Assembly: GCA_028691595.1 (NCBI GenBank)
Contig: JAQUZA010000003.1
Span: 1-34,012, forward strand
DNA: 34,012 nt
Source: Candidatus Rifleibacteriota bacterium
GTDB taxonomy: Bacteria; Muiribacteriota; Ozemobacteria; Ozemobacterales; Ozemobacteraceae
Reading direction: 5' to 3'
Shown here: positions 1 through 13,319 of the stretch, in pieces
Position numbering within the stretch: the stretch's first letter is position 1
Layout: each line of letters begins with the position of its first letter
The notes under the pieces: generated by a model
Database searches by the model: none
What the model was told of the DNA's origin: nothing
Seen by the model: only the letters and a program-made list of their open reading frames with translations
Program-made: the position numbers and the translations under genes

Positions 1-931
1 CTCTGATTTTGCATTTAACTGACACGGTGCCGGCTGATACCGGTATCATGGTCAGAGTATAGGCAATCGAGCCTTTGAGTGCATCGTTCACATTGCTGTC
101 GGTGTAGGTTGCTACGACTTTGCCGGCTGCTTCAGCCCAGACAATAATATCTCGCTGCTGGGATTCAAGAATATAGCCCGGCAGATTGCGCAGCGTTCCG
201 GTGATGTTAAGGGTCATGGGTTGAACCTTAATAACACCAAGATCTTTTGGCGAGGCACCAATAGAAATCGCTGTGCTGTTGCCGTCTGAACCTGCGGTAT
301 TGTATTCGGTATAGTTCGGGCAGGAAATGGTGTAGTGATGGTCGCCACCTTCAAGTCCTGTCCAGCCAATATCTCTGAAGTCTTCAGCCGTTTCAAACAG
401 CTTGGTGCGCCTCTGGTTGTAAGGCGTTGTCTGTGTAAGGGTGAAATTACGCAGAGGCCGGCCGGTTATGGCATCGATGGGGTAGCCCTTCAAGGTGCCT
501 TTTACGAGATCAGCGTTTTTCTGCATCTTTATGACCGGTGCCGAAACCGTTTCGCCGTTGGCAACATTGACTGCTGCGGCTGGTATATTAGTTGTATCGC
601 TGCCGGTTGCCTGGCTTGAAACAAGTGAATAACCATACTTTTCGACGAAAAGATTCCAGGTTCCCTTGGTAAGGTCAGTCATTACAAAAGAGCCATCGCC
701 GGCGGTGTAGACCGACCTGTTCTCATGCGCACCCGTTGCTGTGGTGCCGTCACCTCTGATGAGAACTTCGGCAATCGGCTGATTGTTAGTCGAGTTCAGC
801 ACATAACCCGTAATTGTTCCGCCCTGAATGCCAAGTGAGCCTTTTTCGCAGCCCGTAAAAATAATACTGGCCAGCGTCAGGACGAAAAGCAGTAGCCAGC
901 GTCCTTTTGCAGTGGTCTGATGTTTAACCAT
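1..931 (-). CDS. Lipoprotein with carboxypeptidase-regulatory-like repeat domains (partial, C-terminus beyond window start)
   Basis: Not in ORF track because it is open at the edge. Reverse strand reads MVKHQTTAKGRWLLLFVLTLASIIFTGCEKGSLGIQGGTITGYVLNSTNNQPIAEVLIRGDG..., with GGAGG upstream of the ATG and a lipobox (FTGC). I read no stop down to position 1. Confidence 0.85.
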   Translation of the reverse strand, partial: MVKHQTTAKGRWLLLFVLTLASIIFTGCEKGSLGIQGGTITGYVLNSTNNQPIAEVLIRGDGTTATGAHENRSVYTAGDGSFVMTDLTKGTWNLFVEKYGYSLVSSQATGSDTTNIPAAAVNVANGETVSAPVIKMQKNADLVKGTLKGYPIDAITGRPLRNFTLTQTTPYNQRRTKLFETAEDFRDIGWTGLEGGDHHYTISCPNYTEYNTAGSDGNSTAISIGASPKDLGVIKVQPMTLNITGTLRNLPGYILESQQRDIIVWAEAAGKVVATYTDSNVNDALKGSIAYTLTMIPVSAGTVSVKCKIR

Positions 932-1050
932 GGTTGCCTCCATGAAAGTGTAGAAAATATCTCAGCATGTCTATCGGCAATTGAACTGACAACTTGAATA
1001 GTTTTTTTTATTTTTTACCAGATATTTGAGTTCCCTGTCGTCCCGCGTAA

Positions 1051-1245: not shown

Positions 1246-1545
1246 GTAAGCGTGAATCTAGTTTTTGCCTGCTTAAGTGTTTGTTTGTGCAGCAGGAGCT
1301 GCAGCGCATGGTCTGGTTACTTAGAGGGTTAGAGATTGGTCGTGCCATTTCCCTGCGCCTGGTCTTGTAATGGTTATGCCAAAATCATCGGGGCGCTTTT
1401 CATGGTGCGATGATCAAAAGAGAGGGTCTGAGCTGATTTTTGTTTCCGGCAAATAAAACTTACAGATTCTGGTTAATTTTTTGTGCGGATGCGCCGATTA
1501 GGTAGTGAAGCCGACTCTTTTAAGAATCTTGCTGGAGGCGTAATT

Positions 1546-2781
1546 ATGAATAGAGAAAGGCGGAACCCGGTAAATATCGGGATTCTGACGGCACTTTTTC
1601 TTGTGCTGCTGGGCAGCCTTGTTGGGTGCGAAAATGGGACCCTTGGATTGAAGGGTGGTAGCATTTCGGGAACAGTACTGGACAGCCGGACGCTGACTGG
1701 TATTGCTGCCGTCAATATCACAGCAGTTTCAGGGGACGATGAGGATAAAGCCTCGAAGTTTACCAGCTCAGATTCAAATGGCAACTACCATTTTTCGAGC
1801 ATGCGCGCTGACGAATGGACACTGACCTTTGACAAGGTTGGTTATACACCAATAGACAGCACTGCTTCGACGGCTGTTCAGGTTGTTGTGGTCAACAATG
1901 AAAACAGCCAGGTTCCACAGGTGCGGATGGTTCAGAACTTCATCAATCAGTATGTAACCATCAGGGGAACACTCAAGGATGCCACTAATGGCAGCGTCAT
2001 TACCTATGGCAACTGTCAGTTTCTGTTTGGTCAGGAATCCTTCAGTAACCGATTGCCCGGCGAGTTCACCACCGGGTTCAGAATTCCCGCATCAACATCA
2101 CCGCTGAATATCGTTATCACCGTAGCCGGTTATCTGACCGCGACTGTGCCTTTGACCGATGCAGTTACCGATCGTGATCTGGGAAGCATAAGCCTGCAGC
2201 CTGAAACCTACAAGGTCGTCGGTCGCTGGACCGATGTGCCAGGCTGGGTTTTTAAAGAAAAGGCTCCTGCAACGATTATTGCCCGCTCAGGCAGCAAAAT
2301 TGTGGCAATGGCCTCATCGACTCTTGATATGCAGCAGTTCGAACTCACCGGTATTCCGAAGGGTCTGTCAGTGACTATCGATGCTGAAATAAAGGGTTAT
2401 CGCATGAATTCGCCAATCTCGATCTACCCCAATGGCGACTTCCAGGGGACCATTTATCAGACTTTCTCGCTGAAGAATAATTTTTCTGCAATTATGCGTG
2501 AAGTCAGGGTTGTTTACAGCAACTCTGCTATTGGTACCAATGACCGTGTCGGTGCCTACTGTGAAGAAACCGGAACACGCTGGCCCGAGACAATTCTTAC
2601 CAATCCGACCGGAACTTCTCTGGGAACTCCAGAAATCGTCGACCTTGGGACGCAGTACATGCCAACCGGTTATACATTCACTTTTGTTGGCTATATTGTC
2701 GAGAATGCCGCATCCAAGGGAACCGTATCGAAATTCATTAACGATGATGGCGCTGAAGCCCAGATCGTATCAATACCGTGA
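1546..2781 (+). CDS. Lipoprotein with carboxypeptidase-regulatory-like domain (paralog 2)
   Basis: ORF 1483..2781; start at ATG 1546 preferred (GGAGG upstream, MNRERRNPVNIGILTALFLVLLGSLVGCENGTLG signal/lipobox). SGTVLDSRTLTGIAAVNITAVSG... followed by NGNYHFSSMRADEWTLTFDKVGY. Confidence 0.85.
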   Translation: MNRERRNPVNIGILTALFLVLLGSLVGCENGTLGLKGGSISGTVLDSRTLTGIAAVNITAVSGDDEDKASKFTSSDSNGNYHFSSMRADEWTLTFDKVGYTPIDSTASTAVQVVVVNNENSQVPQVRMVQNFINQYVTIRGTLKDATNGSVITYGNCQFLFGQESFSNRLPGEFTTGFRIPASTSPLNIVITVAGYLTATVPLTDAVTDRDLGSISLQPETYKVVGRWTDVPGWVFKEKAPATIIARSGSKIVAMASSTLDMQQFELTGIPKGLSVTIDAEIKGYRMNSPISIYPNGDFQGTIYQTFSLKNNFSAIMREVRVVYSNSAIGTNDRVGAYCEETGTRWPETILTNPTGTSLGTPEIVDLGTQYMPTGYTFTFVGYIVENAASKGTVSKFINDDGAEAQIVSIP

Positions 2782-2831
2782 GGTCAAATATGCATAAACA
2801 GTCTTCTCATTCAGCCGGGAGGTTTAATATT

Positions 2832-4331
2832 ATGAATCTGAGATTCCTGGGCGGCTGGTTTCTGGCAATTGCCGGTATCAGCATTCTTCTGACAATGGGG
2901 TGCGAGAAGGGCGCTCTTGGGGTGAAACCGGCAACGGTTGTCGGCCAGATTGTCGACAAGGATAATCCTTCAATTCCTGTCGCCAACGCGGTAGTTCGCA
3001 TGATTTCAAAAGAAGCGGTCGGCTCTTCTGAACTCATTCAGGGCAACAACTTTGTATCTGCGGTAACAGGCGCAGACGGCAAATTTACCTTCGAAAGCGT
3101 TCAGGCTGACAACGTGGTATTTGAATATTCAGCCCCGGGCTATGCCAGCATGCTCTACCCGAAAAGTGGCAAAGGCGATGCTGAAGAGGGCGCTACTGCC
3201 GAAATAGAGTTCGTAAGCATTCGCAGCGGTGCCTTCGTTGATTTGCGCATGCTGCCTTTGCAGAAAATATCTAACCCTCTGCCTGCTGAAGTGAATGTAA
3301 AGCTGGATCTTGTTGACAGTGCAACCAAGCAGCCGATTGACAAGAACTACGACAATAGTGAAGCACTTAAATTCACTATCAGCTTCAATGGTATTGCCTT
3401 CACCAAGAGCGCTCAGATGTGGCGCGATGAGGGGGTTAAAATATCGGCCGCCAGTGCAGTTAAGACTGTTATTCGCAATGAACCGGTCGGCAGCGGCGCA
3501 CCTGTTTACGAAACCCGTGATGATGTCTCAATAGATGGCAGCGGTGACGTGTTTCAGCGCATCGAAATGACTCCGGTAACCTACCAGCTGTCACTGCGCT
3601 GTTTGAATGTTCCTGACTATATTGTCGGGTCACAGGCTGTGGTTAACCTGTTTGCCGAAATTCCGGCCTATGATTTCCGCCCGGCTCAGATTATCCAAAG
3701 TGCTGTTATGCAGGCTTATGGTGATCTGTATGTTCTCGAATTGCCCGGCATCGTTCTTCAGAGCGCCCTTGGCGTGCACCTGCGCATTCAGACCCGTGGT
3801 TACCTCGATGAAATCGTGCATATCACCAGCAGCAACCTTAAAGAGGGCTCTCAGGGGAATTACCGCCTCGACATCGACTTTTTGCACAGCAACAACACCA
3901 TCGTCGGTGGGCAGCCCACCCCGGTTACCTATGACCCGGCTGACCCGACAAAGAGCGTAGTTGGTCTCTATGACAACATTAAACGCCGTGATGTCGCAAT
4001 CTATGTTACCAATCTCAATCCTAATGATATTGTTTCGATGGCTATCAGTCTGCCGCATACTGGTGTGAATTACGATCTGCCGTATCCGCTCAACCCAACT
4101 TCCGCCGGGCAGTCAACCGGTGGTGAACCGGTTGTGGTTACCTTCAGAGACGTGGCAGTGGGCTTCTATATGTCATACTCGCTTGCGGTGACAAGAGGAA
4201 CCGAGTCTTTCAGCGTTGCCAAGACAAATCTGATGATCAACCCGGAAAACGAACCAACACCCAGCACCCTGGTGTTTGCAGTCAACTGGAAGGTTGAATA
4301 CGACAAGATACTTGCTAAACCAGCTGAATAA
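2832..4331 (+). CDS. Lipoprotein with carboxypeptidase-regulatory-like domain (paralog 3)
   Basis: ORF 2778..4331; start MNLRFLGGWFLAIAGISILLTMGCEKGALGVKP at 2832 with GGGAGG upstream (MHKQSS at 2790 is an alternative). Shares the GCEKGxLG lipobox context with the two neighbours. Confidence 0.82.
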   Translation: MNLRFLGGWFLAIAGISILLTMGCEKGALGVKPATVVGQIVDKDNPSIPVANAVVRMISKEAVGSSELIQGNNFVSAVTGADGKFTFESVQADNVVFEYSAPGYASMLYPKSGKGDAEEGATAEIEFVSIRSGAFVDLRMLPLQKISNPLPAEVNVKLDLVDSATKQPIDKNYDNSEALKFTISFNGIAFTKSAQMWRDEGVKISAASAVKTVIRNEPVGSGAPVYETRDDVSIDGSGDVFQRIEMTPVTYQLSLRCLNVPDYIVGSQAVVNLFAEIPAYDFRPAQIIQSAVMQAYGDLYVLELPGIVLQSALGVHLRIQTRGYLDEIVHITSSNLKEGSQGNYRLDIDFLHSNNTIVGGQPTPVTYDPADPTKSVVGLYDNIKRRDVAIYVTNLNPNDIVSMAISLPHTGVNYDLPYPLNPTSAGQSTGGEPVVVTFRDVAVGFYMSYSLAVTRGTESFSVAKTNLMINPENEPTPSTLVFAVNWKVEYDKILAKPAE

Positions 4332-4400: not shown

Positions 4401-5546
4401 TCAGATTACTGATTTGCCGTTATGATATGGTACTTTAAGATGTGCGGCGATGGTGGCGGCTACATCCCAGAAGCCCTGACGAATGCCGAGGTCGAGACCA
4501 GATCTGCCATGCTGATAAACAAGCAGGGGAACTGCCTCGCGGGTGTGATCTGAGCCTTTGTAGGTCGGATCACAGCCATGGTCGGCGGTGATCAGCAGCA
4601 GGTCGTCATTTTTCATCAGTTTGACAAAATCGCCGAGCCAGACATCGAAGTCTTCAAGAGCTTTTTTATAACCGGCGACATCGCGGCGATGACCATATTT
4701 CATATCAGTATCGACAAGGTTGGTAAAAATAAGGCCATTCTCTATTTTGCTCAGAGATTCAACGGTGCGCTGCATGCCATCATCGTTGCTTTTGGTCGTA
4801 ACATGCGGTTCAACACCCTGGCCGGCAAAGATGTCATAGATCTTGCCAATGCCGTAGGTTGCAATGCCCTTGGCCTTGAGAACGTCGAGAAGGGTTTCGG
4901 TGGGCGTAAGGCTGAAGTCATGTCGGTTTGAAGTTCTGGTATAACTGCCCGAACTGCCGGTGAACGGGCGGGCGATTACACGGGCTGCTCCAAGTTCTGG
5001 TGGTTGCAGCATGTCTCTGGCAATCTGGCAGATGCGATAAAGTTCTTCAAGCGGAATGACGCTTTCGTGAGCCGCAATCTGAAAAACTGAGTCGGCCGAA
5101 GTGTAAACGATCGGTTTGCCGGTTTTAACGTGCTCATCACCGAGCTTTTCTATTATTTCGGTGCCTGAAGCCGGGTAATTGCCCAGTGTCTGGCGACCGA
5201 TCGCCTTTTCGAACTGCTCGATAAAGTCTTTCGGAAAGCCTTCTGGAAAAACAGGAAAGGCGAATTCAAGCCTGGCTCCCATCATTTCCCAGTGACCGGT
5301 GGTCGTGTCTTTGCCTGGCGAAAGTTCATACATTTTGCCGTAAGAACCAGTTGGGGTTTTTTCGGGTGGGACTCCGGTTATTTCGGCAATATTGCCAAGA
5401 CCCATCTTCTGCATGTTGGGTACGTTCAGCCCACCTGCAACCTTGGCAAGGTTCGGTATGGTGGCGGCCCCGACATCACCATATTCTTTCTGATCAGGCA
5501 TTGGCCCGATTCCGGCGCTGTCTAATACTATACAAATTGCTCGCAT
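4401..5546 (-). CDS. deoB: Phosphopentomutase
   Basis: 381 aa; [44 protein letters not shown] and [29 protein letters not shown] motifs typical of DeoB. Confidence 0.95.
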
Positions 5547-5713: not shown

Positions 5714-6169
5714 TCAGGCTTTGGTTCTGAGATCTTCGAGCCGCATGATTTTTTCGACGCGGGCGGCGTGTCGACCCGGTGCTGGTTCTGTGTTGAGCCA
5801 GAGATCGACGATCTGTTTCATCAGACCGGTGCCGATTACCATGCTGCCAAGGGTTAAAACGTTGGCATGATTGTGTTCTCTGCTGTTACGCGCGGTATAA
5901 AGATCGTTGCAGCAGGCGGCTCTGACTCCGGGCACCTTGTTGGCAGCCATGCATGAGCCAATTCCGGCACCATCGACGATGATTCCGAGGGTGTGGGGGT
6001 TCTGTGACACAGACCAGGCGACGAGAAAAGCGATGTCGGGGTAATCGACAGCGTTATCAGAGTAAGTGCCCACATCTTCGACCACAAAATTTTTGCTCTG
6101 CAGGTGTTTTTTAAGTTCTTCTTTGAGCGGAAAACCGCCATGATCAGCGCCGATTACTATTTTTGGCAT
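5714..6169 (-). CDS. RpiB/LacA/LacB-family sugar-phosphate isomerase, BMC-associated
   Basis: 151 aa MPKIVIGADHGGFPLKEELKKHL...VDGAGIGSCMAANKVPGVRAACCNDLYTARNSREHNHANVLTLGSMVIG. Start overlaps the stop of the upstream BMC-T gene (TGATG). Confidence 0.9.
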   Translation of the reverse strand: MPKIVIGADHGGFPLKEELKKHLQSKNFVVEDVGTYSDNAVDYPDIAFLVAWSVSQNPHTLGIIVDGAGIGSCMAANKVPGVRAACCNDLYTARNSREHNHANVLTLGSMVIGTGLMKQIVDLWLNTEPAPGRHAARVEKIMRLEDLRTKA

Positions 6170-6726
6170 CAGATGAACTCCTGGAACAATTCTGGCCTTG
6201 GCCTTGGTATTACGACATAATTCACTACCAGACCCTTTTCTTCGAGCGAACTGAGGCCGGCAGCAACTGCGGCCTCAACCGCTGCCACATCGCCGGTCAT
6301 TGTATAGAAGGCTTTGCCACCGATGGCCATGGCAATTCTGAGCTCACAAAGGGTAACATCGGCAGCTTTAACAGAGGCATCGGCGGCCAGAATCGTCGAA
6401 ACGATGTCGAAGGTTTCGACTACGCCAAGGGCATCGGTTTTATCAACCATATTGGTCGCAGTCATGGCGGGGTAGATTTGTTCGTGCAGGTTCGGAATAA
6501 CCAGATCGTTAACCAGATAACCCTGCCCGACCTGAATACCGGCGGCAACACTCGCTTCAACCGCAGCTACATCGCCCCACACCAGGCAGATAAATTTGCC
6601 CGGGCAAACGGTTCTGGAGAGTAAAAGTTCTACTGATGCGGTTTTAAGCATGGTGTCGGTCACGAGGTATCCGACAGAAATGCTTGAAAGCTCGATCAAT
6701 CCTATGGCATTCCGGCTTATGTTCAT
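6169..6726 (-). CDS. Tandem-BMC-domain shell protein, PduT-like (BMC-T)
   Basis: 185 aa with two BMC domains (AIGLIELSSISVGYLVTDTMLKTASVELLL...; ALGVVETFDIVSTILAADASVKAADVTLCEL...); SRTVCPGKF matches the Cys-Pro-Gly-Lys loop of PduT. Confidence 0.92.
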   Translation of the reverse strand: MNISRNAIGLIELSSISVGYLVTDTMLKTASVELLLSRTVCPGKFICLVWGDVAAVEASVAAGIQVGQGYLVNDLVIPNLHEQIYPAMTATNMVDKTDALGVVETFDIVSTILAADASVKAADVTLCELRIAMAIGGKAFYTMTGDVAAVEAAVAAGLSSLEEKGLVVNYVVIPRPRPELFQEFI

Positions 6727-6736
6727 GGCTGTTCCC

Positions 6737-8050
6737 TTAATCTCCGGCGATTACAATGGCGCGGTCACTGACTGAAACAATTTTACCGCTGATGGATGCG
6801 TGCAGTTGTGCCCCAAGTTTGCCTTCCGGCACGGTTCCTATTTGTTGCCCGGCGCTGACGGTATCGCCGGTTTTGACCAGCGGGGTAACCGGCACGCCGA
6901 TATGCATTTTCAGTGGCAGCGTTACCTTCTTAAAACGTCTGCTGATATTGGTCAATGGTGCTTTATGGTTATAGTCAAGCAGCGCCAGTTTTTTGAGCAG
7001 TCTTTCGATGGTTACCCGGCGGGCCTGGCGCATCGGGTGAATTTGGGGTTCGCCTTTGAATGCAGCCAGTTTGACACCCTTGCCCAGGTGAAATTTCTTT
7101 GAAATCATACACATTTCGCGTGGCGGCAGGTCTTCTGGGCACGAAAAGAGTGAGCACAGGCCACATTCACTGCAGAAAACGGAATCAATGGCATAGTCAC
7201 TTTCGGCGTAGGGTGCCAGCTGGGCGGTGCGCATTGCTTTGTGTGGTCTGATCGGGTAGCCAAGCAGTGCTCGAGGGCAAAGCTCTGAGCAATCAGTGCA
7301 CTGGTCGCAGGCTGAGCGTGCGATGCGCGAATTCTTGCGGTCACCTGCGGTCATCTTGCGGATCAACACGTGATCTTCAGGCATGGCAATCAGGCCGCCA
7401 CAGGTTTTGCTGACAATATCAACGGCCGGGTCGGTGACCAGTTTCCCCATCATTGGGCCGCCATCAATTATTCGCAGGCCATCGATACTGTTAAGGCCGG
7501 CAAGAGCCAGAGCTTCGAGAACAGTGATGCCGATAGGGACTTCAACGGTGCAGGGGTGGGGGACCTTGCCGGTAATGGTAAGAAATTTGCTGATTACCGG
7601 GCGGTTTCGCCCGATATTGAGGAGGGTTTCGACATTCATGACCACGCAACCGATGTTCAGCGGAATCCCGCCGAAGGGGATCAGCCTGCCGGTTGCTTCA
7701 TATACAAGCTCGTATTCGTCGCCGGCGGGGTAAAAATCACCAAGTCGCAGTACCTGGATGCGTTCATCAGGTATGGTTTCTTCAAGGTAGCATATCAGTT
7801 CGTTATATTTCTTTTTGATGCCGATGTAACCTGTTTTGGCACCGGTAATATTTATGGCAGCAATCAGGCCTTTAAAAAAATCTGAGGTATGGTGCCTGAG
7901 AATCTCTTTGTCTTTGTGAAGCAGTGGTTCACACTCAGCGGCATTGACGATCAGTGCGTCAACATTGCGGGCTGCGAGCTTGACCTGAGTTGGAAAGCCG
8001 GCACCACCGCAACCTACCAGCCCAAGATGGGCGAAATTCTGTTCTGCCAT
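6737..8050 (-). CDS. PduS/RnfC-like Fe-S flavoprotein (BMC-associated electron transfer)
   Basis: ORF 6737..8086; start MAEQNFAHLGLVGCGGAGFPTQVKL preferred. Two cysteine clusters CDQCTDCSELCP and CSECGLCSLFSCPEDLPPREMC; C-terminal biotinyl-like segment. Confidence 0.9.
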   Translation of the reverse strand: MAEQNFAHLGLVGCGGAGFPTQVKLAARNVDALIVNAAECEPLLHKDKEILRHHTSDFFKGLIAAINITGAKTGYIGIKKKYNELICYLEETIPDERIQVLRLGDFYPAGDEYELVYEATGRLIPFGGIPLNIGCVVMNVETLLNIGRNRPVISKFLTITGKVPHPCTVEVPIGITVLEALALAGLNSIDGLRIIDGGPMMGKLVTDPAVDIVSKTCGGLIAMPEDHVLIRKMTAGDRKNSRIARSACDQCTDCSELCPRALLGYPIRPHKAMRTAQLAPYAESDYAIDSVFCSECGLCSLFSCPEDLPPREMCMISKKFHLGKGVKLAAFKGEPQIHPMRQARRVTIERLLKKLALLDYNHKAPLTNISRRFKKVTLPLKMHIGVPVTPLVKTGDTVSAGQQIGTVPEGKLGAQLHASISGKIVSVSDRAIVIAGD

Positions 8051-8130
8051 ATTTGCCTCGATTATCAGAGCCGGTGTCAGCAACACCCGGGCACGCCCGG
8101 GGTGGGCTCACAAGCCAGCCAGGACAGTGA

Positions 8131-9546
8131 TCAGACGATTCTGAATGAATCGACAATGACGCAGCGGCGCATGCGGGTAAATGAGCGGGCTGTAGTAATG
8201 CCTTCGCCAGTTGGCGAGGCAATGGTCATGGTTGTGTTACCTTCTCCGCCAAACCCCAGCCCTGCATAGCTGGGGCCATTTTTAACGAAGATACTGCAAT
8301 CGCATTTGCGGGCCATGAGGTGAAGATTGTCGATGTTTTTGCTGTGCATTACTGCGGTATGGCGGTTTCCGGCTTCAACTTTCACTGCCAGATCGATGGC
8401 AGCAAAAACATCACGGACGCGCACCAGTGGGATAACCGGCATCAGCAGTTCTTCAACCACGAAAGGATGGTCTGGAAGAGTTTCGCAAAGGATGATCCGG
8501 GTTTCTTCCGGGATTCTGACACCGATTTCAGCCATAATGACCGAGGCGTTGCGCCCGACAAGCTTACGATTGGGTGCGCCAGCTTTCTGGTCGATGCAGA
8601 TTTTTTCGAGTTGCTGAATTTCGCGCTGCGAAGCTTCATAGGCACCGCTGTTGCGCAGGTGTTTTTTGAGTTCGTCAGCAACTGATTCAACAACAATGAT
8701 TTCTTTTTCGGCGATGCACAGAACATTGTTGTCGAAACTGGCACCCGAAACGATGTCGCGGGCGGCCTTTTTAAGGTCGGCGGTTTCGTCGACGACGGCC
8801 GGCGGATTACCCGGGCCGGCGGCAATATATTTTTTGCGCGATTTAGAAGCAGCGGCAACGACACCGGGGCCACCGGTAACTGTAAGCAATCTGATACCGG
8901 CATGTGTCATTATTTTCTGCGCGTTTTCAATACTGGGTTCAAAAACTGTAGTAAGCAGATTTTCGGGCCCGCCAGCCTCAACGATGGCATCGTTCAACAG
9001 GCTCATGGCAAACTGGCTGCATTTGGCAGCTGCCGGGTGCGGGGCAAAAACTACTGCATTACCGGCGGCAACCATGCTGATAGCATTATTTATCACTGAT
9101 GCCGTCGGGTTGGTGGATGGGGTGATTGCCCCGATAACACCATAGGGAGCTCTCTCGACAAGGGTAAGGCCATGGTCGCCGGAAGCGGCTTCGGGTGTCA
9201 GATCTTCGATGCCGGGAGTTTTGTCGATAACCAGTTTGTTTTTCTGGATTTTGTCGTCAACTCGCCCGTAACCGGTTTCTTTGTTGGCAAAGCGGGCCAG
9301 CTCTTCAACTTTTTCGAGTGAGCGGCGGCGCATGTTGTCAATAATTTTGCCGCGCGTGGCCAGCGGCAGATCGACAAGCTGTTTTTGGGCCCGGTCAGCG
9401 GCGGCAACGGCATCGTCTACCGATTCAAAAATGCCGCGGCCTTGTGCTGCAGCGGGTTTTGAAATGGCGGAGGGCAATGGGGCGTTACCTATCCGGCTGA
9501 GTACTTCCTGGACAATCAGATTCAAGTCTTCCCTTGAAACGCTCAT
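8131..9546 (-). CDS. CoA-acylating aldehyde dehydrogenase (PduP/EutE family), BMC cargo
   Basis: 471 aa; active-site region SFDNNVLCIAEKEIIVVE; N-terminal amphipathic helix SREDLNLIVQEVLSRIG followed by a linker, as in encapsulation peptides. Confidence 0.95.
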   Translation of the reverse strand: MSVSREDLNLIVQEVLSRIGNAPLPSAISKPAAAQGRGIFESVDDAVAAADRAQKQLVDLPLATRGKIIDNMRRRSLEKVEELARFANKETGYGRVDDKIQKNKLVIDKTPGIEDLTPEAASGDHGLTLVERAPYGVIGAITPSTNPTASVINNAISMVAAGNAVVFAPHPAAAKCSQFAMSLLNDAIVEAGGPENLLTTVFEPSIENAQKIMTHAGIRLLTVTGGPGVVAAASKSRKKYIAAGPGNPPAVVDETADLKKAARDIVSGASFDNNVLCIAEKEIIVVESVADELKKHLRNSGAYEASQREIQQLEKICIDQKAGAPNRKLVGRNASVIMAEIGVRIPEETRIILCETLPDHPFVVEELLMPVIPLVRVRDVFAAIDLAVKVEAGNRHTAVMHSKNIDNLHLMARKCDCSIFVKNGPSYAGLGFGGEGNTTMTIASPTGEGITTARSFTRMRRCVIVDSFRIV

Positions 9547-9582: not shown

Positions 9583-9864
9583 TCAGGAACGTTCTGAATC
9601 GAAAACCACCTGGTCTACGATGGCGCAGACTGCAGCGTCAACCGGCTTTTTGAGCGTGCGCTCACAAAGCCTTGCCGAGCTGCCGGCAACGACCAGAACG
9701 TTCTCTGAGGCACCTGCACCTACCGCGTCAACAGCGACGACGTGGTTACCTGTAGGTTTGGCACCGTCGAGAGTCAGTTCTTCGACTACGAGCAGTTTCA
9801 AACCTGTCAGGCTGTCATCTTTGCGGGTACAAACAACAGTACCACATACGCGGCCAAGTATCAT
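9583..9864 (-). CDS. EutN/CcmL-family pentameric shell vertex protein (BMC-P)
   Basis: 93 aa MILGRVCGTVVCTRKDDSLTGLKLLVVEEL...VDAVGAGASENVLVVAGSSAR. Confidence 0.95.
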   Translation of the reverse strand: MILGRVCGTVVCTRKDDSLTGLKLLVVEELTLDGAKPTGNHVVAVDAVGAGASENVLVVAGSSARLCERTLKKPVDAAVCAIVDQVVFDSERS

Positions 9865-9880: not shown

Positions 9881-10177
9881 TTACTTCTTGGAGCTGGCCA
9901 GGATTTCTCTGATGGGCAGCACTTCGTCAAGATTGGTGTGAGGGCGGGGAATTACGTGTACAGAAACCAGTTCGCCGAGTTTCTTGGCAGCGGCAGCGCC
10001 GGCATCGGTAGCAGCTTTAACTGCGGCAACATCGCCTCTGACGAAAGCGGTTACATAACCTGAACCGATTTTTTCCCAGCCGACGAGTTTTACGTTGGCG
10101 GCTTTTACCATTGCGTCACATGCTTCAATGAGAGCTGTTAATCCACGTGTTTCAATCATACCCAGGGCTTCCTGCAT
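9881..10177 (-). CDS. Hexameric shell protein (BMC-H)
   Basis: 98 aa [60 protein letters not shown]; classic Pfam BMC domain. Confidence 0.96.
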
Positions 10178-10212: not shown

Positions 10213-10857
10213 TTAAGCTACTATTTCGACCATGTCGCCGTTTTTGAGGCCGGCGGCGTTGGCTTCGTCCGTATCGATATGGAAATCAAGAGCGAACTTG
10301 TCGCTGACCCTGACGAGAACGTTGTTAAAAATGACCGATTTAACTCCACCGGTTTTAACAGAGACTCTGTCGTTGTCTTTGAGACCAAGTTTAGCTGCGT
10401 CACTGGTGCTGGCGTGAATGTGGCGGGCAGCCACGATTACACCTTCTTTGATGGTAACGGCACCAGCAGGGCCTACCAGAACAAGCCCGGGAGTATTCGC
10501 GGTATCGCCGGAATCTCTGACAATTGCTTTAACTCCGAGCTTAAAACTGTCGGTCATGGAAATTTCGACCTGAGTGCTCGGTCTGACCGGGCCGAGAATG
10601 CGGCACTTTTCGATCGAGCCTTTGGGGCCTACAAGCAGAACGGTTTCTTCAGCGGCATATTGGGCCGGTTGAGAAAGGGGTTTCATTTCTTTGAGGGCGT
10701 AGCCTTTACCAAACAGGGTTTCGAGGTCAGCCTGAGAAACGTGCAGGTGGCGATTGCTGACACCGCAGGGCACCATGCCCGTTTTAATTCTACCGCGGAG
10801 GTCGATGCATTTTAACACTTCAGCAACGATTGTTTTAACCTGGTTTTCGTCGATCAT
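10213..10857 (-). CDS. pduL: PduL-family phosphate propanoyl/acetyltransferase
   Basis: 214 aa; GVSNRHLHVSQADLETLFGKGYALKEMKPLSQPAQYAAEETV and VAARHIHAS motifs; N-terminal encapsulation-peptide-like MIDENQVKTIVAEVLKCI. Confidence 0.94.
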   Translation of the reverse strand: MIDENQVKTIVAEVLKCIDLRGRIKTGMVPCGVSNRHLHVSQADLETLFGKGYALKEMKPLSQPAQYAAEETVLLVGPKGSIEKCRILGPVRPSTQVEISMTDSFKLGVKAIVRDSGDTANTPGLVLVGPAGAVTIKEGVIVAARHIHASTSDAAKLGLKDNDRVSVKTGGVKSVIFNNVLVRVSDKFALDFHIDTDEANAAGLKNGDMVEIVA

Positions 10858-10862
10858 CTGGT

Positions 10863-11930
10863 TCAGTTTCCTTTCCTGATGGTAATTTGCTGTAAAAAGT
10901 CTTTAGTTACTGCTACGGCACCCGATTCTGGCAGTCGGCCCGGGTCAACAACCCCTGATTGATAAAGGGAAATCATGCCATCTGCGGCCCGACGATCAGA
11001 GGCAATTATATCACAGGTACCGTTAGACGCAAGTGTAAATGTGCAAAAAAGAGCAAGCCCATGCTTTTGCGCGGGAGCTGAAAGTTTTTTCAGGTTCTCA
11101 GGGTCCGTATAAGGCTTCTTTGGAGGTATAATGGCTCCAAAACAACGCTGGTCAACCAGCATCTGCACCGAAACTTCACCGGTGAAGGCTCCATGGCTCG
11201 CCCAGTGAACAGACGGAGCGACGGTTCGACCACTCAGGGAGGGGAATAGACCATTAAAAACCGGCAGATAAAGCTCATTGACGATAAAAAGAAGGCCGGG
11301 AAAGCGACTTGCCAGGGAAAAAAGTTCTTCGCGCTGATTCGCCAGCCCCTGGCGAGATTCGGCAATGACCGGGAGTAGAAAATAAAGCTGGTGTTTGCTA
11401 TTGCTGAGGTTCAGCGACGCTGCCACCTCTGCGGCCCATGGGGTGAGGGTGCAGCCATCAGGCAGGTTTCTTGCGCCATTTTGATGCAGTGAGCGAACGT
11501 CATCAGCAGTCAGAACTGTGCTCTGAGTAAATTTTTCACTGCCGGCAAAGCTTCTGGTCTGCTGATCAACAGTGGTATCAACAAGTTTCCGCAGCTCACC
11601 GGGAATTATGTATTCAACGCCCAGTTGCTGCATTTCGGGGCTGGTCTGGGCCATTTTTTCGACAAGCAGGTATACTTTTGGGCCCCGGGTGCCGGAAAGG
11701 AGCTCCCAGAGCGATTGGGTTTCATGATCGTCTCTGATGCCCAGGCTGACTTTTTTGAGAGTCTGACTGATGCTTGCGCAATCGATAACCACCGTTTGAA
11801 GAGCTGAAAACCCGAGATATCTTATTGAATCAAGTTTTGCGGCCCGGCATTTGTCGGGTGAAAGAGCCAGTGGCTCAATAAAAAAGCGACTGGGGTTATC
11901 CGAAATTATTAACACCTGATTGCTGTTCAT
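10863..11930 (-). CDS. Composite BMC-locus protein: flavoprotein-like region + EutQ-type segment + truncated TIM-like domain
   Basis: ORF 10863..11966 (MNSNQV at 11930 is the more likely start). VVIDCASISQTLKKVSLGIRDDHETQSLWELLSGTRGPKVYLLVEKM resembles flavoprotein family; LTADDVRSLHQNGARNLPDGCTLTPWAAEVA resembles the EutQ N-terminus; VAPSVHWASHGAFTGEVSVQML resembles triosephosphate isomerase. Confidence 0.6.
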   Translation of the reverse strand: MNSNQVLIISDNPSRFFIEPLALSPDKCRAAKLDSIRYLGFSALQTVVIDCASISQTLKKVSLGIRDDHETQSLWELLSGTRGPKVYLLVEKMAQTSPEMQQLGVEYIIPGELRKLVDTTVDQQTRSFAGSEKFTQSTVLTADDVRSLHQNGARNLPDGCTLTPWAAEVAASLNLSNSKHQLYFLLPVIAESRQGLANQREELFSLASRFPGLLFIVNELYLPVFNGLFPSLSGRTVAPSVHWASHGAFTGEVSVQMLVDQRCFGAIIPPKKPYTDPENLKKLSAPAQKHGLALFCTFTLASNGTCDIIASDRRAADGMISLYQSGVVDPGRLPESGAVAVTKDFLQQITIRKGN

Positions 11931-12006
11931 GGGCCACATAATAAACGCAAAAAACGGCAAAAGCAATTATTTTAAGGAATTGCGTGCCAGGCAGGTGGCA
12001 AAACCG

Positions 12007-12687
12007 CTATCGGCGGTCCAGCCCTTCAATTTCGACGGTTCGCTTGAGATGCCGGCATATTTCCGCTGCTTCTTCAATCAGGGCGGGTACAGTTGCGGCC
12101 CAAACTCCACCGCCCCTGTGGAGCATCAGGGTATTGCCCACTCCCTCTAACTGCGAACAACTGCCAGCGTATTTCATCATAATCTTTCTGGTTTTCGCAT
12201 TGAACAGATATTTCAGATCTATTTCGTCATCACCCTGAAGAACAAAGGCTTCTGAAAAAGCCGGGTCTTCTGCAAAATTGATATCCTGCCCACCGAATAA
12301 TTTCCCCAGGTAGTCGTAAGGGTTGTCTTCATGCCTCAAGAAAAAATGTGGCAGGTTCATTGTATGGTCATGGATCAGGCAGATAGTATAAAAATGAGCT
12401 TGTGCTGAATGGCTGAAGCCAGTTGCAAAGCTGTAATCGGCAACTTTGAATTCAAAGTCTCCGAAGTTGCCGGTAATTACGTTCGCTACTCTTCTATTCT
12501 GACCTTGTGAAAAGAATTTAAACCTTCTGAGGCGGCGGATAAAACCCGGGCTGGTCTCTTTATAAGAGTAACCGTTTTTCTCTGCCATCTTTTTGAAATT
12601 TTCGGTGCGCTCCTGTTCACGTTCTCTGCTCTGGAAAAATATCCAGGCAATAAGAATACTTATAATTGTCAATACAACAATATACAT
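12007..12687 (-). CDS. Membrane-anchored hypothetical protein
   Basis: 226 aa with N-terminal TM helix (MYIVVLTIISILIAWIFFQ); closely spaced with flanking genes on the same strand. Confidence 0.65.
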   Translation of the reverse strand: MYIVVLTIISILIAWIFFQSREREQERTENFKKMAEKNGYSYKETSPGFIRRLRRFKFFSQGQNRRVANVITGNFGDFEFKVADYSFATGFSHSAQAHFYTICLIHDHTMNLPHFFLRHEDNPYDYLGKLFGGQDINFAEDPAFSEAFVLQGDDEIDLKYLFNAKTRKIMMKYAGSCSQLEGVGNTLMLHRGGGVWAATVPALIEEAAEICRHLKRTVEIEGLDRR

Positions 12688-12692
12688 AGCTT

Positions 12693-13319
12693 CTATTTAT
12701 GCTGTTTCGGGCCGGTTTTGCCGTAATTTTGCCCTTTTGTCTTTGTTTTTGCCATGTCAGAGAGTGCCGCCCGCCGATTCAGCTCGGCAATACTCGGCTG
12801 TGATGAATTTTTAAAGGTTTTTGCGGTTCTGGGGTCTTTGATCAACTGCGCCGCAATCAGCATTTTTCGCAGTTCAAGCCCGAATGGGAAGGCAATCACC
12901 AGGGCAACAACTATGAGGGTAGCCGGAGAATACCACAGGGCGGCAGGCGTGTTGACTCTGTATCTCTTGTCTGGTCGGTCGGGGTCATAGATAAGTTCAA
13001 CTTTGTGACCAATTTCGGCCTTGCAGTGTTCGGACAGCAACATCTTAATCTCGATGTTTTTGTTGGTCGTAAAGGTAACAATCGGGTTATAACGGGTGCC
13101 TCGTTTGGTCGAGTAGGGGTCGAGCTTTGTGACGACAGCCGTTGCCTTCAACCCATCGCCGGTCAGTCTCCAGGCATCATAAATCCCCCAGGCTCCCCAT
13201 ACGGCTCCGGCCAGCAGCAGGAGAACCACTACGCCAATAAACATGATTACCAGCATCAAATCACTGGATTGGAGCTTTTCGAAGTCTTCGATTGTACTAA
13301 GCCTGCTTGATCTGGCCAT
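12693..13319 (-). CDS. DUF3592-like membrane protein
   Basis: 208 aa; two TM segments flanking a region with AVVTKLDPYSTKRGTRYNPIVTFTTNKNIEIKMLLSEHCKAEIGHKVELIYDPDRPDKRYRV. Confidence 0.7.
   Translation of the reverse strand: MARSSRLSTIEDFEKLQSSDLMLVIMFIGVVVLLLLAGAVWGAWGIYDAWRLTGDGLKATAVVTKLDPYSTKRGTRYNPIVTFTTNKNIEIKMLLSEHCKAEIGHKVELIYDPDRPDKRYRVNTPAALWYSPATLIVVALVIAFPFGLELRKMLIAAQLIKDPRTAKTFKNSSQPSIAELNRRAALSDMAKTKTKGQNYGKTGPKQHK

Follow-up and report, generated by a model that had tools for sequence, protein, structure and literature searches.

Cargo enters bacterial microcompartments (BMCs) by way of encapsulation peptides or through linkers such as EutQ. In the sugar-phosphate-utilizing (SPU) pathway, deoxyribose-1-phosphate is converted to deoxyribose-5-phosphate, which yields acetaldehyde and glyceraldehyde-3-phosphate; the acetaldehyde passes to acetyl-CoA and on to acetyl phosphate. 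SPU is a described BMC type (Sutter 2021, PMC8217296; Axen 2014, PMC4207490); one Atribacteria SPU locus encodes a triosephosphate isomerase (TIM), and PF02441 flavoproteins are frequent in BMC loci, among them EUT2 and GRM (Axen 2014, PMC4207490). In Salmonella EutQ, the shell is bound through helices H1/H2 and the encapsulation peptides of cargo through H3/H4 (PMC12487888). The dimer interface of TIM is formed by interdigitation of loop 3 together with helices 2 and 3, and deletion of loop 3 leaves near-inactive monomers whose activity is down three to four orders of magnitude (PMC4664265). Prozymes are examples of dead paralogs that regulate an active enzyme partner (PMC5201418).

The window, by which we mean the whole 34,012-nucleotide stretch of Candidatus Riflebacteria DNA analysed here, carries a BMC operon whose leading conserved gene, directly before pduL, encodes a protein that we call pTIM (pseudo-TIM). 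After pTIM the order is pduL, BMC-H, BMC-P, AldDH, pduS, BMC-T, rpiB and deoB (Table 1). The locus contains the RpiB, AldDH, PduL, BMC-H, BMC-P and BMC-T of an SPU locus, and judged by gene content the operon is of the SPU type. Upstream of it lie two minus-strand open reading frames (12007-12687 and 12693-13319) with no family match; for the 208-aa member of this pair a homolog exists in L027, the closest relative, but the other loci examined show neither frame. Proteins with CarboxypepD_reg (Ig-like) domains adjoin the operon (2-943, minus strand; 1483-2781 and 2778-4331, plus strand), and those at 1483-4331 have homologs at the same place in many relatives.

Table 1 Features of the BMC operon and of pTIM, in window coordinates
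Feature	Coordinates	Strand	Basis
pTIM (pseudo-TIM) gene, about 355 aa	10863..11930	-	homologs; dN/dS
N-terminal alpha/beta (Rossmann/flavodoxin-like) domain, degenerate PF02441 relative	11571..11930	-	profile links; AF2
EutQ H1/H2-type segment (LTADDVRSLHQNGARNLPDGCTLTPWAAEVAASLN), putative shell-binding module	11397..11531	-	hmmsearch; Salmonella EutQ analogy
Half-TIM domain, equivalent to TIM beta1 to beta5	11037..11396	-	Pfam, profile-profile, AF2 fold
Retained TIM loop 3 and helix-3 socket Met, GAFTGEVSVQM	11160..11192	-	G, A, T, G, E, S, M invariant 17/17
C-terminal tail replacing TIM beta6-beta8, without catalytic Glu motif	10866..11036	-	AF2 model, motif inspection
pduL phosphate propanoyl/acetyltransferase	10213..10857	-	PF06130 263.7 bits; N-terminal encapsulation-peptide-like helix
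BMC-H shell protein, EutM-like	9881..10177	-	above NCBIfam EutM cut-off
BMC-P (EutN/CcmL) vertex protein	9583..9864	-	family profile match
Acylating aldehyde dehydrogenase (AldDH)	8131..9546	-	profile match; N-terminal encapsulation-peptide-like helix
PduS/RnfC-type flavin/Fe-S electron-transfer protein	6737..8086	-	profile match
BMC-T (PduT-like) shell protein	6169..6726	-	profile match
RpiB-family sugar-phosphate isomerase (pfam02502)	5714..6169	-	profile match
DeoB phosphopentomutase	4401..5546	-	NCBIfam deoB 451 bits, cut-off 341

The DeoC-type aldolase (pfam01791) is encoded outside the main locus, in a satellite locus where two BMC-P genes adjoin it; the DeoC of a relative matches TIGR00126 at 296 bits, and in the window's genome the satellite locus is split over two contigs (G000 contigs C160 and C517). 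Its product is a fusion that runs from an encapsulation-peptide-like helix through a flavoprotein-like domain (weak PF02441, 15.6 bits) and a Cys-rich linker with CxxC repeats to DeoC, and the fusion is kept together with the two BMC-P genes in most of the family (L109, L110-L127, L148-L150). As in described SPU loci, AldDH, PduL, RpiB, shell genes and a DeoC with an encapsulation-peptide-like N-terminus are thus all present here; unlike in those loci, DeoC stands in a satellite locus and bears an extra N-terminal domain, and DeoB is encoded inside the operon.

The loci differ also in TIM, which is intact in some SPU loci elsewhere, whereas in the Riflebacteria locus it is replaced by pTIM. 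Neobacillus and Bacillus SPU loci encode a TIM with full catalytic motifs and an encapsulation-peptide-like N-terminus, and in one further locus (L097) TIM directly precedes pduL, the slot that pTIM holds in Riflebacteria. Intact TIMs with an N-terminal encapsulation-peptide-like helix were seen in Bacillaceae SPU loci at L054:7776-8612 and L062:5056-5907. Each genome of the Riflebacteria family that has a full-length TIM has exactly one, and one incomplete genome has a fragment; this housekeeping TIM carries neither an N-terminal extension nor an encapsulation peptide, and follows PGK in the window's genome.

The pTIM frame as listed runs from 11966 to 10863 on the minus strand, with 367 codons counted from TTG 11966; homologs open at an ATG matching 11930 or a few codons upstream, and translation is likely to begin at ATG 11930, with ATG 11939 as the alternative. 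A sequence-only reading had described this frame, beside pduL, as a composite of a flavoprotein-like region, a EutQ-like segment and a truncated, degenerate TIM; the frame and the C-terminal peptide quoted from it are where that reading placed them, and the three-part architecture held in tests. pTIM is almost certainly a conserved BMC protein in which a degenerate flavoprotein domain is followed by a EutQ H1/H2-type segment and then by a dead half-TIM, and we found no description of it in the literature searched.

We found pTIM in 17 of the 24 genomes of its family and in 0 of 16 genomes belonging to the phylum's other families. Its proposed tie to pduL and BMC shell genes was borne out: it directly precedes pduL in 17/17 (the window and 16 relatives), all of which have BMC shell genes, and on every contig of sufficient length the genes after it follow in the same order. 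Four genomes, all in a single genus, lack BMC-P, the DeoC fusion and pTIM alike, and three further incomplete genomes have the satellite BMC-P pair only; among the family genomes examined, pTIM is kept in every one with a main BMC locus. One of the 17 members (L014) is truncated at its C-terminus.

That the half-TIM is homologous to TIM is close to certain. The window protein matches PF00121 at 22.7 bits (gathering score 20.1), as do all 17 family members (best E 4.4e-8), and a profile of the C-terminal domain aligned to a profile of 99 true TIMs with a probability of 98.6% (E 6.6e-16). When the PDB was searched with the family profile, the best 60 entries listed were TIMs or one TIM-family isomerase (best E 3e-7); a fold search with the AF2 model of pTIM (pLDDT 78.9) likewise listed, as its best 50 PDB entries, TIMs or the TIM-family L-erythrulose-1-phosphate isomerase. 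The resemblance claimed from sequence therefore stands above chance by Pfam, profile, PDB and AF2 fold comparisons, and a chance match was rejected. Profile comparisons are collinear over beta1 to beta5 and stop after beta5, and the AF2 half-TIM has five core strands and a short tail, not a full (beta/alpha)8 barrel of about 250 aa. Compared with TIM (PF00121, TIGR00419), pTIM shares this ordered beta1-beta5 homology and an intact GAFTGExSxxM motif but lacks the full barrel, the catalytic Lys, His95, Glu97, Glu167 and the phosphate-binding half. A circularly permuted full TIM was also considered and rejected, the N-terminal domain not being TIM-like by profile.

In a TIM phylogeny pTIM forms one clade (100/100) on a very long branch, compatible with an origin from either an SPU-locus TIM or the housekeeping TIM. 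A profile scan of genome contigs returned, outside Riflebacteria, ordinary TIMs only among the matches listed; with few exceptions, the 98 scanned ORFs and the window genome's own TIM retain the catalytic residues. The long branch, and the TIM in the same slot in L097, would fit pTIM being a decaying remnant of an SPU-locus TIM, on its way to loss after fusion and with no present role. Selection contradicts this: between the window and L027 (73% identical) dN is 0.204 and dS 1.64 for pTIM (dN/dS about 0.12), and dN is 0.133 and dS 1.02 for the half-TIM portion (dN/dS 0.13), and the gene is therefore under purifying selection. With pTIM also retained alongside every main BMC locus and its loop 3 invariant, a remnant is extremely unlikely, and a pseudogene was rejected on the ratio of 0.12.

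The catalytic residues, by contrast with ordinary TIM, have been lost from the domain. For the catalytic Lys, the beta1 segments of pTIM members have no NWK-type motif; the His95 position, taken by ungapped register, holds His in 1/17; neither Glu (Glu97) nor either Arg is among the residues seen in the GHSERR region of the 17 members; and YEPxW, the motif of the Glu167 region, occurs in 0/17. The proposed loss of Lys and His is thus confirmed, and the Glu167/YEPxW region has gone as well. pTIM has no counterpart of loops 6-8, the phosphate-binding half of TIM, and its homologs differ freely from one another at the catalytic positions of loops 1 and 4. An operon that handles sugar phosphates (RpiB and DeoB, with DeoC in the satellite locus) would suit a sensor that binds sugar phosphates or an enzyme whose active site has been rearranged, and phosphate sites are often kept in TIM-barrel folds; given the absent loops, the absent Glu167 and the drift at loops 1 and 4, we consider such a function very unlikely. 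Of the roles put forward in the sequence-only reading, a pseudoenzyme or scaffold fits best, while sugar-phosphate binding is left unsupported.

What survives in the half-TIM is the dimer-docking loop, a point that had been missed when the domain was correctly called a truncated, degenerate TIM. The stretch GAFTGExSxxM, which spans 11 of the 118 columns, holds 7 of the 12 invariant half-TIM residues (hypergeometric p 4e-6), and its helix-3 Met, invariant in 17/17, matches Met81 of Trichomonas TIM, which helps to form the socket that receives the partner subunit (PMC4664265). The donor side of the interface (Thr and Glu of GAFTGE) is kept in 17/17, whereas on the acceptor side Glu and Arg of loop 4 have been lost. 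Across 99 true TIMs, Glu of loop 3 and Arg of loop 4 covary, with E,R in 93 and M,P in 6, the latter being one cyanobacterial clade and hence one event; pTIM keeps the Glu without the matching Arg, and on this pattern the Arg partner would be expected on a different molecule. The M,P sequences are Synechococcus/Cyanobium-type TIMs (L039, L042, L051, L052, L057 and L092), in which GAYTGM is paired with GHSEPR.

Against docking, loop 3 contributes to the fold as well, and some of its conservation may have a structural cause. The half-TIM might then be a re-used fold that acts as a structural scaffold for lumen enzymes or the shell through other surfaces and makes no contact with real TIM, with loop 3 conserved for the stability of the half-barrel or of a pTIM homo-oligomer. 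A first gene in the operon, with a EutQ-type segment, a BMC-flavoprotein module and no catalytic residues, could well encode such a scaffold; however, the invariant Thr, Glu and socket Met are partner-subunit contacts in TIM, and the acceptor pocket for a symmetric pTIM dimer has been lost, which makes a scaffold of this kind somewhat unlikely.

The N-terminal domain is linked by profile to flavoproteins of BMCs. A profile of this domain plus the linker finds PF02441-bearing BMC flavoproteins outside the phylum (24.1 and 34.4 bits; cut-off 22.7), two of which adjoin BMC-H genes (L140, L141) and, like pTIM, have this domain followed by a EutQ-type segment; unlike them, pTIM falls below the PF02441 score and is fused to a half-TIM. 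None of the 17 members, the window protein included, exceeded the PF02441 gathering score, and a fold search with the domain (AF2 pLDDT 83) gave weak Rossmann/receiver-type matches only, so the flavoprotein-like assignment stands by its profile links but not by its own Pfam score or fold match. The pTIM and DeoC-fusion N-terminal domains align in the right register, but not significantly (P 0.17), and a common origin is not claimed. The profile of this domain plus the linker also recovers a paralog of 230-250 aa in the same genomes, with a flavoprotein-like domain and a EutQ-type segment but without TIM (233-243 aa in L139 on G000:C99, L142, L145, L146 and L147); no BMC genes were recognised around it.

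The 45-residue middle segment joins pTIM to a system with a demonstrated shell contact. An HMM built from pTIM linkers alone matches residues 2-45 of E. coli EutQ with an E value of 1.3e-7 (hmmsearch, Z=4000), EutQ being the best of 16 proteins from its region; the segment corresponds to EutQ residues 3-46. The EutQ likeness noted earlier is thereby confirmed; what had escaped notice is that the matching part of EutQ falls inside the part responsible for shell binding in Salmonella. By analogy, we infer that the pTIM segment would bind the shell too. pTIM resembles the Salmonella/E. coli shell-cargo linker in having a homologous H1/H2 segment joined to a cargo-capable module, but differs in lacking the cupin domain and the H3/H4 encapsulation-peptide-binding helices, and in placing the segment between an N-terminal flavoprotein-like domain and a C-terminal half-TIM. 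The EutQ cupin (PF06249) is absent from pTIM (17 members, the window included) and from the window's genome; its matches in relatives' genomes are mostly small cupins. In two distant genomes the EutQ-type segment also forms the C-terminus of PF02441-type BMC proteins whose genes adjoin BMC-H. Elsewhere, a PduL with a EutQ H1/H2-type segment at its C-terminus (L143:9303-10340) has three BMC-P genes nearby, and residues 18-45 of E. coli EutT (L180:7503-8306) match a broader linker profile at 14.8 bits, which suggests that EutT carries part of the segment.

The union of a shell-binding-type segment with a TIM docking module occurs in organisms in which TIM lacks an encapsulation peptide, which suggests that it is an adaptor for that TIM. 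We propose that pTIM is a shell-to-cargo adaptor that docks the housekeeping TIM through loop 3; this is the best-supported mechanism, to which we give a probability of roughly 0.48. The EutQ H1/H2-type segment would tether pTIM to the EutM-like shell, and the half-TIM, unable to catalyse, would serve as the docking module. Its loop 3 would enter the pocket that loops 1 and 4 form in the only real TIM of the cell, as in a pair of TIM subunits, and the housekeeping enzyme would be drawn inside the organelle or onto its surface, the organelle being where glyceraldehyde-3-phosphate is set free by DeoC. More tentatively, a housekeeping enzyme may in this way be captured for the BMC by one-sided mimicry of its homodimer interface and not by an encapsulation peptide.

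Several points weigh on the adaptor. Because TIM homodimers are tight and both pockets are filled, pTIM would have to compete with a subunit or bind before assembly. We count against it that the pTIM-TIM contact would be only half of the normal TIM interface, and also that the BMC needs no TIM activity in its interior if glyceraldehyde-3-phosphate can exit through the shell. The same docking evidence could instead describe a prozyme-like regulator of TIM or of flux, changing activity (by inhibition or activation) and not location, and there is precedent for dead paralogs regulating active partners; the EutQ shell-binding-type segment fused to pTIM speaks for a role in location and not in regulation alone, and we hold a purely regulatory role to be decidedly unlikely. 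The adaptor does share its proposed logic with prozyme-type dead paralogs such as the trypanosome AdoMetDC prozyme, in which a dead relative binds the active enzyme, but its proposed effect is localisation via a fused shell tether, and its interaction is putative.

If pTIM is such an adaptor, it would represent a different solution to cargo recruitment, in which a pseudoenzyme copies one face of a dimer interface to recruit a shared housekeeping enzyme, and would offer a modular route for targeting unmodified enzymes to engineered shells. The EutQ H1/H2 segment is also seen here in a new architecture, so that the shell-binding role proposed for it can be tested in a second system. For the Riflebacteria themselves, the adaptor would explain how an SPU compartment without a TIM of its own handles the glyceraldehyde-3-phosphate made by DeoC.
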